This document shows positions 57,164-64,000 of a stretch of 64,000 nt of DNA, piece by piece. Made by a program: the position numbers and the translations under genes. Source of the stretch: Oscillatoria sp. SIO1A7. Lineage in GTDB: Bacteria > Cyanobacteriota > Cyanobacteriia > Cyanobacteriales > Laspinemataceae. How positions within the stretch are numbered: position 1 is the stretch's first letter; each line of letters opens with the position of its first letter. The notes under the pieces are model-generated. The model was given only the letters and a program-made list of their open reading frames with translations, searched no databases and was not told the origin of the DNA. The stretch covers positions 1 to 64,000 of the forward strand of contig JAAHFN010000024.1 in NCBI GenBank assembly GCA_010672965.1, in the 5' to 3' direction.

Positions 57164-58144
57164 CTAAATTCCCAAATCTTCCCTAATCGTTAGAGAAAAT
57201 TTCTGGCAGCAGCGCCGAAAAAAGCTACTCAGAGTCGGCACTTTTATCCCCAATTGGCGGGAAATTTCTGGCCAGGATTTGCCATCTAGGGTGGCTAAGG
57301 CGATCGACCTAAAAGTAGCGTCGGGCCTATTTCTGATATGCTCTTTCTCAAAAATGCGATCGGCATCTTCTTCTATATAATGCCGAATTATTGTATATCT
57401 ATCTTCTTCTTCTGGCAAATTCTTTTTCTCCTGGGCTGCTGCCATCCGCTCCAGAGCCTCTAGGGAAGGCAAGCTTTCTTCCTGGCTACGGTTAAAGTCC
57501 TTACTGCATTTGATAAAATTGTTTTTGAGAACAACATTATTGACCCAAGTCATAAATTGGGCGCGTTGCGGGTTAAAGTTATCTATCTTTTCGCAGACAT
57601 AAGTCAAAGTTTGATTAACCGCATCGTCATAAACTAGCTGGGAAAACTGAGAGCTGAATAAAGTTCGGTAATAGGGAGAAAGGAAAAGTTTGCCCGATAG
57701 CTGAATCGCCTCCACCAGCTCCCGCAAAGCATATTGCCGGAGTTCCGCTTGGGGTGGATGCCGTTGGGCTTCGATCGCCAGCTCTTGCAATCGCCACCAG
57801 TCGAGAACTTTGGCGATCGCATTATCCCGCAACTTACTTGCCCATACTCTCGTTTCAGTCTCTTCGGGGTCGTAGCTATCCAGCGCCCCTTCAATATCTT
57901 CGAGCAGTTGCGCCGTTATTTGCCGATAAATATCCAAATAGACGCCAAAAAGGGGTTGACCCTTGTAGGGCCTACAGATTCGGCGCGATCGCAATATCTC
58001 ATCCACAAGGCGAGCCAAAGCAAAAGAGCGAGAATCGCTAGTTTGGCGGGCGAGCCTTTGCGCCTCTATCGCTCGCTGTTTTAGTTCGTCCATTGTTTTG
58101 ACAGCACTTCCGGAAGTGCGACCCGTCATTACAGCATTGGCCAT
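57164..58144 (-). CDS. Sigma-70-like RNA polymerase sigma factor
   Basis: The 326-residue product has a long N-terminal helical part (residues 15-135), a sigma region 2-like segment (about 140-215; L-V-Y-D-D-A-V-N-Q-T-L-T-Y-V, F-M-T-W-V-N-N-V-V-L-K-N-N-F-I) and a region 4-like helix-turn-helix near the C-terminus (A-L-A-T-L-D-G-K-S-W-P-E-I-S-R-Q-L-G-I-K-V-P-T-L-S-S-F-F-R-R). This matches the cyanobacterial group of atypical sigma factors found near DUF1822 and CHASE2 genes. It should direct transcription of a small regulon, probably including its own cluster. No anti-sigma factor is adjacent, so the CHAT protease might supply control. Confidence 0.85.
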   Translation of the reverse strand: MANAVMTGRTSGSAVKTMDELKQRAIEAQRLARQTSDSRSFALARLVDEILRSRRICRPYKGQPLFGVYLDIYRQITAQLLEDIEGALDSYDPEETETRVWASKLRDNAIAKVLDWWRLQELAIEAQRHPPQAELRQYALRELVEAIQLSGKLFLSPYYRTLFSSQFSQLVYDDAVNQTLTYVCEKIDNFNPQRAQFMTWVNNVVLKNNFIKCSKDFNRSQEESLPSLEALERMAAAQEKKNLPEEEDRYTIIRHYIEEDADRIFEKEHIRNRPDATFRSIALATLDGKSWPEISRQLGIKVPTLSSFFRRCCQKFSLTIREDLGI

Positions 58145-60773: not shown

Positions 60774-61709
60774 ATGAACCGAAACTATCTTGCCTGCACC
60801 GATATCAACCAACGACCAAAAAATGAAGATAGCTTTTTGGTCTGCCAACTGCTACCCGTTCTCGGACGGGAACCCGTCACCATCTTAGCTGTTGCCGACG
60901 GCATGGGCGGTTACACCCACGGAGCGGATATTAGCCGAGAAGCCCTGCGCCAAATTGGTGCTGCTCTATTTGAAGAATTATGCGTTAGTCCCGCTCTCAA
61001 TAACTCTGCAACGACTGAAACCAACTTCGGCATCCTTTCGCGAGTATTGTCCGACGTGCTGGAACAAAGCAACGCCTATGTCAGGCAAATGGTAAAAAAT
61101 AATCGCTGGAGAAAAGCAGGCACGACTATTGTTATTGGCGCTATCTGGAAAAATGGAGTCGTAGCAGCTAATTTGGGCGATAGTCTTTTATTTCACTATC
61201 GGCAACAAGACCAATCGCTATCCCAAGTTACCCCAGACCATAGCGTAGCAGGATCCCTACTCCGCTATGGTCTGATTTCTCCAGAAATGGCTGCAGTTCA
61301 TTCTGGCCGCCACCAACTGGAGTTTTATCTCGGTTGCGATCGCCTTCCACCAGACAAACCCGTTAGAGTGTCCTTAGCTCCCGGTGACTTGCTGCTCCTT
61401 TGCAGCGATGGCATTAGCGGTTCTCTCTTGCCTGGAGAAATTGCTAGCATTCTTGGGGCTTGCGACTTAGAAGCTATAGGCAAAAAATTGATAAAACTAT
61501 CCTGCTCCAATGGTGCCACCGACAACCAAACTCTAATTTTATGGCGCCAACCGGAAACTGCAACTACAATTGACGATCTTATCCAAAAAGACACCGCTCT
61601 CCAAGAAGACAACTCTCTCGAAGAAGACACCGCTATCCAAGAAAGCGGTTCTTTAATAAAACCTATTGCCAAAACTATCAAGGAACAAATTGCTAAAATA
61701 CTGCGTTAG
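60774..61709 (+). CDS. PP2C-family protein phosphatase
   Basis: PP2C enzymes remove phosphate from Ser/Thr residues with two metal ions. The 311-residue product has the motifs in order: N-E-D-S-F near residue 17, A-V-A-D-G-M-G-G near 41 with the metal-binding Asp, G-T-T-I-V near 125, A-N-L-G-D-S-L near 141, S-Q-V-T-P-D-H-S, L-L-L-C-S-D-G-I-S-G near 210 and A-T-D-N-Q-T near 247. Catalytic Asp residues are present. A C-terminal tail (about 265-311) has an acidic repeat (Q-K-D-T-A-L-Q-E-D-N-S-L-E-E-D-T-A-I-Q-E). It is followed on the same strand by a kinase-FHA gene, so the two are likely antagonists. Confidence 0.93.
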   Translation: MNRNYLACTDINQRPKNEDSFLVCQLLPVLGREPVTILAVADGMGGYTHGADISREALRQIGAALFEELCVSPALNNSATTETNFGILSRVLSDVLEQSNAYVRQMVKNNRWRKAGTTIVIGAIWKNGVVAANLGDSLLFHYRQQDQSLSQVTPDHSVAGSLLRYGLISPEMAAVHSGRHQLEFYLGCDRLPPDKPVRVSLAPGDLLLLCSDGISGSLLPGEIASILGACDLEAIGKKLIKLSCSNGATDNQTLILWRQPETATTIDDLIQKDTALQEDNSLEEDTAIQESGSLIKPIAKTIKEQIAKILR

Positions 61710-62025: not shown

Positions 62026-63222
62026 ATGTCTAAACTTCTAGAGCTAACGGAAGGCGATCGCATTACTGTAAAAGTTGGCCCCATTGCCGAAGTAGAACTT
62101 ATAGAAATAATGGCTAAAGAAGCTTTTGGCTCTGTTTGGAAAGTTGCAAATAGCGCCACCAAGGAGCTTTACATTATGAAAGTTATTCAAGGAATAAGGG
62201 CCGATAGCGAACTCCTCGATCGCATCCGCCTAGAAGCCGAAGTTGCTATTCCTTCCCAAAATATCGTTCCTGTTATCGGCCTGTGCCAATGGGATAAATA
62301 TACCTTTCTGATTCTGTTCGAGTATTTCCCGGGACAATCCCTGGACAAACTCCTGGCAGCCGGAGCATTAAGCGCTACAGATAAGCAAAGGGTATTCCAG
62401 GAAATTCTACTGGGCGTGGCAGCGGCTCATCGCTGCAATATTATCCACCGCGAACTAAATCCAAGCAATATTTTAATTGACAGCAAGGGCAATGTGAAAA
62501 TTATAGATTTTGGTATTTCTAAATTTAAAGGCAAACATTTAACTGCTACCGGCGAAATTGTCGGCAAATATCAATATATGGCACCAGAGCTGCTAGTACA
62601 TGGTGTCAAAGTCACCGATGCTAGCGCCGATATCTATTCTCTCGGTCATCTTTTCTACGAGCTGGCGATGGGTAAAAATTTTTGGGTTCGCAAACACTGG
62701 TTGCATCTAGAGCATTTTGCCGCTTATATTAATCAATATCCAGCACCGACTGAAGCAATTGACTTGAACGATTTTCGCTGCGATTTTTTTCGGGAAGCCA
62801 AACGGGTAATAGAGGGAATGGTCAAGATTGAGTTCTCAGAACGCTATAGATCGGTAGAGGAAATAATATCCGACTTGGGCATAAATACGGAAATTACCAG
62901 ACATAAAAAGGAAACTTTGCTCAGCTATCCCCAGCTAATTGTGGAGTCAGGAAGGAATAAAGGCGCTCGCACTTTGGTGAATATAGAAGATGGAGGCGCG
63001 CTGGTGCTGGGACGAACAGATATCGCTGGTGCCGATCGCAGCATCAGTCGCCGCCACTTGCAGTTCGATCGCCAGAATAATCTCTATTTTGTCCGCGACT
63101 CGAACAGCAAAAATGGTACAATGCTACGGGGCAAAGTTATTAAAGAAAATCCCGTGCCAATCAATAATGGCGATCGCATTAAGGCTGGCGATATTTTCCT
63201 TCGCTTTGTCGGAGCTGCTTAA
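62026..63222 (+). CDS. Kinase-like protein with FHA domain, altered active site
   Basis: The 398-residue product has a Hanks-type Ser/Thr kinase fold (about 15-290) and a C-terminal FHA phospho-Thr-binding domain (about 320-398; L-V-L-G-R-T-D, S-I-S-R-R-H-L-Q-F, D-S-N-S-K-N-G-T). In the kinase part the Lys of L-Y-I-M-K-V (52) and the D-F-G (161-163) are kept, but the catalytic loop reads H-R-E-L-N-P-S-N: the catalytic Asp is Glu143 and the next conserved Lys is Asn145. The Gly-rich loop (A-K-E-A-F-G-S-V) has lost its first Gly. It may be weakly active or a pseudokinase that acts as a scaffold. It lies between the PP2C and calmodulin-like genes. Confidence 0.9.
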   Translation: MSKLLELTEGDRITVKVGPIAEVELIEIMAKEAFGSVWKVANSATKELYIMKVIQGIRADSELLDRIRLEAEVAIPSQNIVPVIGLCQWDKYTFLILFEYFPGQSLDKLLAAGALSATDKQRVFQEILLGVAAAHRCNIIHRELNPSNILIDSKGNVKIIDFGISKFKGKHLTATGEIVGKYQYMAPELLVHGVKVTDASADIYSLGHLFYELAMGKNFWVRKHWLHLEHFAAYINQYPAPTEAIDLNDFRCDFFREAKRVIEGMVKIEFSERYRSVEEIISDLGINTEITRHKKETLLSYPQLIVESGRNKGARTLVNIEDGGALVLGRTDIAGADRSISRRHLQFDRQNNLYFVRDSNSKNGTMLRGKVIKENPVPINNGDRIKAGDIFLRFVGAA

Positions 63223-63544
63223 GAGCTTGATTTTAGCTTTCAGCTCTCAGCTTTCAGCTTTCAGCTCCTGCTGTCGCGCTTTTTTAGCAAGCTTTTGGCA
63301 GCAGCTTGCTAAAAAGCGCGCAGGTTCCCATGTCTCCGAGTCTCCCCATGTCCCCATGTCTCCCAGTCCCCATGTCTCCGAGTCCCCCAGTCCCCCAGTC
63401 CCCCAGTCCCCATGTCCCCCAGTCCCCATGTCTCCCAGTCTCCAGGTCCCCATGTCTCCCGGGCTGGCAATTGGGATAAAATCGAATTGAGTCCCGATCG
63501 ATCGATAACTCGTCAGAAAATTCCGAGCAAAAGGAGAAAACCTT
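63223..63544. repeat. Simple-repeat block before calmodulin-like gene
   Basis: AGCTTTC/AGCTCTC repeats (63235-63267), an inverted pair AGCAAGCTTTTGGCAGCAGCTTGCT (63287-63311), and a CCCCAGTCCCCATGTCTC array (63328-63455). The AAGGAG ribosome-binding site for the next gene is at 63531-63536. Confidence 0.85.
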
Positions 63545-64000
63545 ATGACATCTGCGCAAGTGCAAACAGCGCCTGCTGCCATGAGCGAGGATGAAGTACA
63601 CAAGCTGTGGGAAGCGTTTACAGTCTTTGACGCCGACGGGAGCGGTGCCATATCGCCGGAGGAGTTGGGCCAGGTGATGCGCTCCTTGGGACAGAATCCC
63701 ACCAACGAACAGATCCGCGCCATGATTAAGGAAGTGGATGTTGACCTATCGGGCACCATCGACTTTGAAGAGTTCAAAGCTCTGATGGTAGCCATGCATG
63801 GCGATCGCGCCAGTCGCCTCAAGCTCGCCTTCTCTGTATTTGACGAAGACGGCAACGGCAAGATTACCGCTAACGAAATGACTGACGTGATGAGCCAATT
63901 TGGCCTCACTGAGGAAGAACTCGCCGAGATGTTAAAAGAAGTCGATGAAGACGGCGATGGTACCATTGAGTTTGAGGAGTTTTGCAAGCTCGTTCCCGAG
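63545..64000 (+). CDS. Calmodulin-like protein with four EF-hands (partial)
   Basis: This frame is open to the window end: 152 codons, stop not reached. After a 12-residue lead comes M-S-E-D-E-V-H-K-L-W-E-A-F, like calmodulin's first helix. Four 12-residue calcium loops follow with all liganding positions filled: D-A-D-G-S-G-A-I-S-P-E-E, D-V-D-L-S-G-T-I-D-F-E-E, D-E-D-G-N-G-K-I-T-A-N-E and D-E-D-G-D-G-T-I-E-F-E-E. They form two lobes joined by a linker (A-M-H-G-D-R-A-S-R-L-K-L-A-F) as in calmodulin. ATG at 63545 has AAGGAG nine bases upstream. Calcium binding is near certain from sequence. A regulatory role on the neighbouring kinase-like protein or phosphatase is inference. The C-terminus is unseen, so more domains are possible. 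Confidence 0.93.
   Translation, partial: MTSAQVQTAPAAMSEDEVHKLWEAFTVFDADGSGAISPEELGQVMRSLGQNPTNEQIRAMIKEVDVDLSGTIDFEEFKALMVAMHGDRASRLKLAFSVFDEDGNGKITANEMTDVMSQFGLTEEELAEMLKEVDEDGDGTIEFEEFCKLVPE

Follow-up and report, generated by a model that had tools for sequence, protein, structure and literature searches.

In this study, we show that a gene of Oscillatoria sp. SIO1A7 encodes, in a single reading frame, a calmodulin-like domain with four EF-hands followed by a domain of the Erv1/Alr sulfhydryl oxidase family, and that this architecture is conserved in a family of cyanobacterial and proteobacterial proteins. The gene starts near the end of the window, i.e., the whole stretch of 64,000 bases that was analyzed, which makes up the beginning of contig C100 (195,634 bases) in a genome of 9.08 Mb; contig numbering and window numbering are the same. 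The first-pass annotation had assigned a calmodulin-like gene to positions 63545 to 64000. Four EF-hands are indeed encoded there, but they occupy only the N-terminal 152 of 796 codons, and the product is not the free-standing calmodulin that had been assumed but a large predicted enzyme with a calmodulin-like N terminus. The frame opens with an ATG at 63545 and is uninterrupted up to a stop ending at 65935 (G000:C100:63545-65935); the frameshift just past 64000 that had been envisaged, and that would have made the gene a fragment, does not occur. This stop-free frame of 796 amino acids rules out a free-standing calmodulin (about 148 amino acids) as well as a fragment, as do those of the other family members. 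The earlier observation is thus right in substance but too small in scope, the point of interest being the fusion. The features of the gene are as follows, the boundaries of those beyond the end of the window (64000) being approximate.

63532..63536, + strand: Shine-Dalgarno-like AGGAG, 8 nt 5' of the start codon, read directly in the sequence
63545..64000, + strand: calmodulin-like part, first 152 of 796 codons (domain, aa 13-150); the frame continues to 65935
63629..63664, + strand: EF-hand loop 1, DADGSGAISPEE (aa 29-40)
63737..63772, + strand: EF-hand loop 2, DVDLSGTIDFEE (aa 65-76)
63842..63877, + strand: EF-hand loop 3, DEDGNGKITANE (aa 100-111)
63944..63979, + strand: EF-hand loop 4, DEDGDGTIEFEE (aa 134-145)
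64001-64159, + strand: Ala/Thr/Pro-rich linker, aa about 153-205
64160-65179, + strand: predicted helical psi-Erv-like region with an insert, aa about 206-545 (~340 residues)
65186-65542, + strand: Erv1/Alr domain, aa about 548-666, with CPYC at aa 595-598
From there to the stop ending at 65935, + strand: C-terminal helices, to aa 796

All four EF-hand loops carry D at position 1, D at position 3, S, N, or D at position 5, and E at position 12. The ligands initially listed for the loops were therefore correct at positions 1, 3, 5, and 12 but not throughout: loops 1 and 3 carry A and K, respectively, at position 7, and loop 4 has E at position 9. As the residue at position 7 of an EF-hand loop binds calcium via its backbone, the loops still look competent. 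As in calmodulin, the four canonical loops are arranged in two pairs. Pfam recognized four EF-hand_1 stretches (E = 1.4e-34), and the best PDB matches were calmodulins, at about 1e-37 for single-domain chains. The two-lobe spacing, said at first to copy that of eukaryotic calmodulin, turned out to differ from it, loop starts being separated by 36/35/34 residues versus 36/37/36 in calmodulin, and the HMMER alignment to calmodulin contained two 2-residue gaps, one between hands 2 and 3 and one between hands 3 and 4. The likeness to eukaryotic calmodulin itself was borne out: the domain shares 48 to 53% identity with three eukaryotic calmodulins, compared to 44% with troponin C, 38% with centrin, 37% with calcineurin B, 33 to 37% with three CDPKs, and 26 to 31% with three other cyanobacterial EF-hand proteins. 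In terms of four canonical hands in two lobes, it thus resembles eukaryotic calmodulin, but the latter is free-standing and lacks the two 2-residue deletions. The 34-residue spacing between hands 3 and 4 is also seen in CDPK rows, but a CDPK origin is not supported, given the lower identity to CDPKs than to calmodulins. When the protein was scanned against NCBIfam, no model reached its cut-off; the XopAW calcium-binding effector model (NF041410) scored 68.3 bits, below its cut-off of 120 bits, and covered only aa 22-193.

We then determined the distribution of the fusion. Scanning the genomes of 84,980 species with a single protein query gave 62 loci, which is a lower bound because the scan needs exact short peptides; 55 of them are labeled cyanobacterial and 7 proteobacterial, all 7 being metagenome-assembled genomes (MAGs), and two of the 62 are pieces of one MAG. 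The cyanobacterial members belong to Nostoc, Microcoleus, Tychonema, Scytonema, Tolypothrix, Synechococcaceae MAGs, and others. Our alignment of full-length members comprised 41 rows, namely, the Oscillatoria gene and 40 of the 62 loci, including 6 of the 7 proteobacterial ones; the 22 loci left out were presumed near-copies, partial (L056, L060, L065, L074, and L075), or split by a frameshift (L027). Aligned members are 46 to 77% identical to the Oscillatoria protein, and all 41 matched both EF-hand families and PF04777 (Erv1/Alr) at E values up to 0.01. Within a set of 59 related genomes, the Oscillatoria genome included, the full protein was found in 6, while a seventh gave a weak EF-hand match only.

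Whether such a calmodulin type is common in cyanobacteria, as had been raised against its novelty, was answered by a sample of 292 cyanobacterial genomes. PF04777 was present in 11 of them (and in 0 of 14 control genomes), and the calmodulin domain, at E values up to 1e-10, was present in only 9, in all 9 cases in one frame with the Erv domain, indicating that this calmodulin type and this Erv type go together in the sample. In these 9 of the 11 Erv carriers, the calmodulin domain matched at 5.7e-47 or better, eight frames measuring 798 to 821 aa and that of genome G206 362 aa; just three other calmodulin-domain matches were seen in the 292 genomes, at 4.5e-15 or weaker. The remaining two Erv carriers (G292 and G326, with genomes of 2.3 Mb that may be picocyanobacterial) have the same layout with hands that, read by eye, are degenerate. 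In the G206 copy (L087), aa 207-528 are missing without loss of frame and a stop occurs early; this copy is probably either decaying or a short calmodulin-Erv form.

A 37% identical homologue, annotated as an ERV1/ALR-related protein and with hands degenerate by eye, is carried by a Gemmobacter plasmid, where it adjoins glycogen and sugar genes. This was the only match in 72,556 plasmid records, and a set of 50,697 phage records contained none; in IMG/VR, pattern scans were run twice and gave 51 and 52 candidate stretches, none of which was confirmed by tblastn, although exact-peptide scans of this kind can miss distant relatives. On these counts, the idea of a mobile or phage gene was dismissed. 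No conserved operon or partner gene emerged: of the open reading frame families other than the gene itself, none recurred at more than 10 of the 63 loci, contig ends truncating many of these. Since the surrounding genes are not conserved, the context names no substrate. In the window, two genes shortly before the fusion gene and in the same orientation encode a PP2C-type phosphatase (60774-61709) and a Ser/Thr kinase with an FHA domain (62026-63222), a neighborhood that is not conserved across the family loci. Between the kinase gene and the fusion gene lies a tandem repeat of 8/24-base C-rich units (CCCAGTCC; 63327-63460), and farther upstream (57164-58144) a 326-aa protein shows weak similarity, below cut-off, to a type III-E CRISPR sigma factor model and to ECF sigma factors.

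Conservation is unevenly distributed along the protein. Mean pairwise identity over the 41 rows is 60% for the calmodulin domain, 24.6% for the linker, 68 to 72% for the middle region, 76% for the Erv domain, and 62% for the C terminus. Four canonical loops are present in 31 rows, three in 4 cyanobacterial rows, and one or two in the 6 proteobacterial rows; under a stricter rule that also requires Gly at position 6, loops 1 to 4 pass in 31, 33, 37, and 17 rows, respectively. The variability of the 16 EF ligand columns was compared with that of 10,000 sets of columns drawn at random from the calmodulin domain: across the 35 cyanobacterial members it was lower than in every one of these sets, whereas across the 6 proteobacterial members 2,498 of the 10,000 sets were as low, i.e., the ligands are not selectively conserved there. 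As the ligand columns are unusually invariant only in the cyanobacterial rows, Ca2+ binding appears, as far as the alignment tells, to be under selection in cyanobacteria and relaxed in proteobacteria. The core remains conserved in both phyla, including the members with degenerate hands (the 6 proteobacterial rows, the Gemmobacter homologue, G292, and G326), and must therefore have a role of its own, independent of Ca2+.

We next considered where the calmodulin domain came from. That the domain, or even the whole protein, was acquired from a eukaryote rather than being an old bacterial calmodulin is a conceivable but somewhat doubtful explanation. It is favored by the fact that, of the non-family proteins compared, eukaryotic calmodulins are the most similar (48 to 53% versus 26 to 31% identity for three other cyanobacterial EF-hand proteins), by the patchy distribution of PF04777 (11 of 292 cyanobacterial genomes), by the single strong structural match of the core in a giant virus (Yasminevirus, see below), and by the statement in a passage of PMC10598087 that PF04777 occurs in eukaryotes and some DNA viruses and in few groups of bacteria. 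The tree, however, does not nest the fusion family within the calmodulins: in a tree of 140 columns, 79% of the bootstrap replicates set the family apart by a single branch, the branch support is weak (43/24), and the tree does not order the fusion family relative to calmodulin, troponin C, centrin, and CDPK. The core tree, which is only midpoint rooted, implies three changes between proteobacteria and cyanobacteria, and neither tree is strong enough to give the direction of transfer. The opposite direction has been inferred for the domain, calmodulin-like EF-hands of cyanobacteria or actinobacteria being argued, in a section of PMC7016017, to be the source of eukaryotic calmodulin.

The assignment of the C-terminal half is based on the Erv1/Alr profile and its motifs. 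PF04777 matched with 39.9 bits, compared to a curated cut-off of 27.6, over positions 2 to 57 of its 93, which correspond to the first half of the domain. A profile built from 44 core sequences (the Oscillatoria gene and 43 of the 62 loci) retrieved Erv1, Erv2, and ALR chains from the PDB (best E value, 3.7e-5), always through the CXXC half, and matched no QSOX chain; hhalign against Arabidopsis Erv1 gave a probability of 95.9% over 55 columns with 38% identity. All 41 rows share W557, H561, C595, C598, H601, W653, H656, N657, and V659, of which C595 and C598 form the CPYC pair, and we take the W, H, C, and HN residues among them to be catalytic or FAD-contacting. An insert of about 26 residues precedes the HN half, which reads HNTV, identical to Arabidopsis Erv1. 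No second CXXC, which could provide a shuttle disulfide, is present in the protein; C289 is the only other invariant cysteine, C485 and C742 being kept in 35 of 41 rows, so that no internal shuttle pair is evident. Compared to Erv1, ALR, and Erv2, the fusion shares the Pfam match over the cut-off and the CXXC, WxxxH, and HN motifs, but it measures 796 aa, also contains a calmodulin domain and a helical region, has an insert between CXXC and HN, and has no evident shuttle CXXC. PF04777 has been noted in Nostocales, Oscillatoriophycideae, Rhizobiales, and Rhodobacterales (PMC10598087), and the passages of that paper on the cyanobacterial members do not mention calmodulin.

Structure prediction gave models of moderate confidence for the core (mean pLDDT, 73.2; pTM, 0.79) and for the full-length protein (69.7 and 0.65). 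Foldseek found no convincing PDB match for the core model (best E value, 0.65), and for the full-length model the 50 matches listed were all calmodulin or other EF-hand chains. With a second structural aligner, the top four matches of the core model were all QSOX, with Z scores of 10.1 to 11.6 over 215 to 239 residues, the next row scoring 6.4: mouse 3t59 (Z, 11.6; 239 residues; rmsd, 4.5), human 3lli (11.6) and 3llk (11.4), and trypanosome 3qd9 (10.1). These values lie below the level of about 13 under which, for helical proteins, a match can reflect a common arrangement. We gave the QSOX match more weight because the four rows represent one family, are well clear of the next one, and agree with the Erv sequence match; moreover, the matched range of human QSOX, 294-544, presumably corresponds to the sulfhydryl oxidase fragment (psi-Erv plus Erv). 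Arabidopsis Erv1 aligned to the core model over 99 of 101 residues (Z, 6.3; rmsd, 2.6). A psi-Erv/Erv fold of the core is thus supported by a model. Outside the cellular world, the sole strong viral match in BFVD was Yasminevirus (Klosneuvirinae) A0A5K0UAY3, a protein of 1140 aa labeled histidine kinase, with E = 1.2e-17 and 20% identity over 723 alignment columns with the core.

In both QSOX and the fusion, a sensor or donor module precedes a psi-Erv/Erv oxidase module, which in the fusion is predicted. QSOX, which a passage of PMC3616962 describes from eukaryotes, consists by definition of a thioredoxin domain plus Erv, whereas the fusion has calmodulin in the place of thioredoxin and a large insert. 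No thioredoxin family was among the 13 Pfam matches of the full-length protein at E values up to 1, and the N terminus, where QSOX has its thioredoxin domain, is calmodulin-like.

We consider it probable that the protein is a soluble, likely cytosolic Ca2+ sensor-responder that combines a calmodulin-like domain with an FAD-dependent sulfhydryl oxidase similar to the psi-Erv/Erv part of QSOX. The N-terminal domain, with four predicted Ca2+-binding loops, would be attached by a flexible linker to the oxidase core, in which CPYC and a bound FAD would relay electrons from thiols to O2, yielding a disulfide and H2O2; Ca2+ on the calmodulin part would alter access to, or activity of, the oxidase. 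The electron path of QSOX leads from the thioredoxin domain to the Erv CXXC, FAD, and O2 (PMC3616962, in part). Since the thioredoxin domain that feeds Erv in QSOX is missing here, the donor is probably a separate thiol protein, e.g., free thioredoxin, although other thiols could serve. No membrane- or signal-like stretch was found in the protein (top 19-residue hydropathy, 1.15), and, given this lack of a hydrophobic segment, export is not suggested. Cyanobacteria are described, in a passage of PMC3842002, as being without DsbA/DsbB and using a VKOR-like enzyme instead, so that a soluble Erv enzyme would not be explained by their usual oxidative folding route. A bolder version, which we put forward tentatively but as a real possibility, is that of a bacterial Ca2+/calmodulin-gated sulfhydryl oxidase of QSOX-like psi-Erv/Erv type, with a true calmodulin instead of the thioredoxin module, in which cytosolic Ca2+ transients lead directly to the oxidation of thioredoxin-type thiols and the core, shared with a giant virus, is a bacterial relative of the catalytic half of QSOX.

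Rather than a switch, the calmodulin part might be a Ca2+-dependent targeting or anchoring module, through which a constitutively active thiol oxidase would be recruited to a partner or complex upon a rise in Ca2+. We find this rather unlikely, even though calmodulin is known to work through the binding of target helices and though the long linker varies widely among members (mean pairwise identity, 24.6%, versus 60 to 76% for the other parts), and therefore a fixed contact between calmodulin and core is not required. Weighing against it is a weak indication that the protein contains a target helix itself, at about residues 340-357: in the full-length model, calmodulin-peptide chains 2f2p and 4e53 align on to residue 357, this stretch being a low-confidence part of the model. 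Residues 339-361 are also more basic in members with four hands (mean net charge, +3.1; n = 31) than in those with two or fewer (+1.7; n = 6), two groups that are split by phylum; the charge drop at 340 (22-residue segments) ranks only 50 of 555, and overlapping segments at 343 and 349-357 are in the top 15. Helix 340-357 as an internal calmodulin target is thus only a lead. A target site in the invariant basic stretch aa 492-517 was discarded, the core NGxQKRRER being equally kept in members with degenerate hands.

Least convincing is the proposal that the Erv domain is no longer an oxidase but a scaffold, or catalyzes another flavin/thiol reaction, with PxxYWYEDFMPKLL and NGxQKRRER forming the true active site. 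With a mean pairwise identity of 68 to 72%, the middle region comes close to the Erv domain (76%) in conservation; it contains the invariant C289 and has many invariant residues, more than a degenerate psi-Erv would be expected to need, all of which would fit such a role. The recognizable Erv motifs, with the catalytic and FAD-contact roles that we presume for them, are however invariant in 41 of 41 rows, which makes this proposal very improbable compared to an oxidase.

Full-text searches of the open-licence literature gave no published description of a calmodulin-Erv fusion. Cyanobacterial Erv1/Alr domains and other calmodulin-like fusions are already published; no title or abstract opening among the papers listed named the pairing of calmodulin with Erv. 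A close parallel is calredoxin of Chlamydomonas, in which a calmodulin-like domain with four EF-hands likewise sits on a thiol-redox enzyme of a photosynthetic organism, Ca2+ control being reported for calredoxin (in a part of PMC4911631) and predicted for the fusion. Calredoxin is thus a precedent, in a photosynthetic cell, for the control of a thiol-redox enzyme by a calmodulin domain; its thioredoxin reduces peroxiredoxin (PMC4911631), whereas the fusion has no thioredoxin domain and is predicted to oxidize thiols. Schaffer et al. (2020; PMC7016017) described cyanobacterial calmodulin-like EF-hands on redox and membrane domains, and the main text mentions cysteine-rich domains with cyanobacterial calmodulin homologues. 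The partners listed there are 7TM, Tic110-like, NOS, NADPH oxidase, thioredoxin, and others, with no Erv or sulfhydryl oxidase; "Erv" and "sulfhydryl" are absent from the main text, while Figure 3E and the supplements could still hold the architecture. In our own searches, calmodulin-like EF-hands with three canonical loops each precede a domain that looks, by eye, like arginase/agmatinase in two cyanobacterial proteins (L099 and L100, in G236 and G257), and EF-hands are found at the C-terminal end of a membrane protein with a cysteine motif (FeS-like by eye) encoded by an 834-aa frame (L098, in G182).

Calcium transients are known in cyanobacteria, and to our knowledge few of the enzymes that read them have been described. 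In organisms with redox-controlled carbon metabolism, the fusion is a single-gene candidate for coupling Ca2+ to thiol redox state, and it could let calcium turn protein oxidation on or off, mirroring calredoxin, probably in the opposite direction, i.e., oxidizing rather than reducing. If the core is truly a psi-Erv/Erv module, it would be a bacterial counterpart of the catalytic half of QSOX with a different input module and would bear on the origin of both eukaryotic calmodulin and the Erv enzymes.
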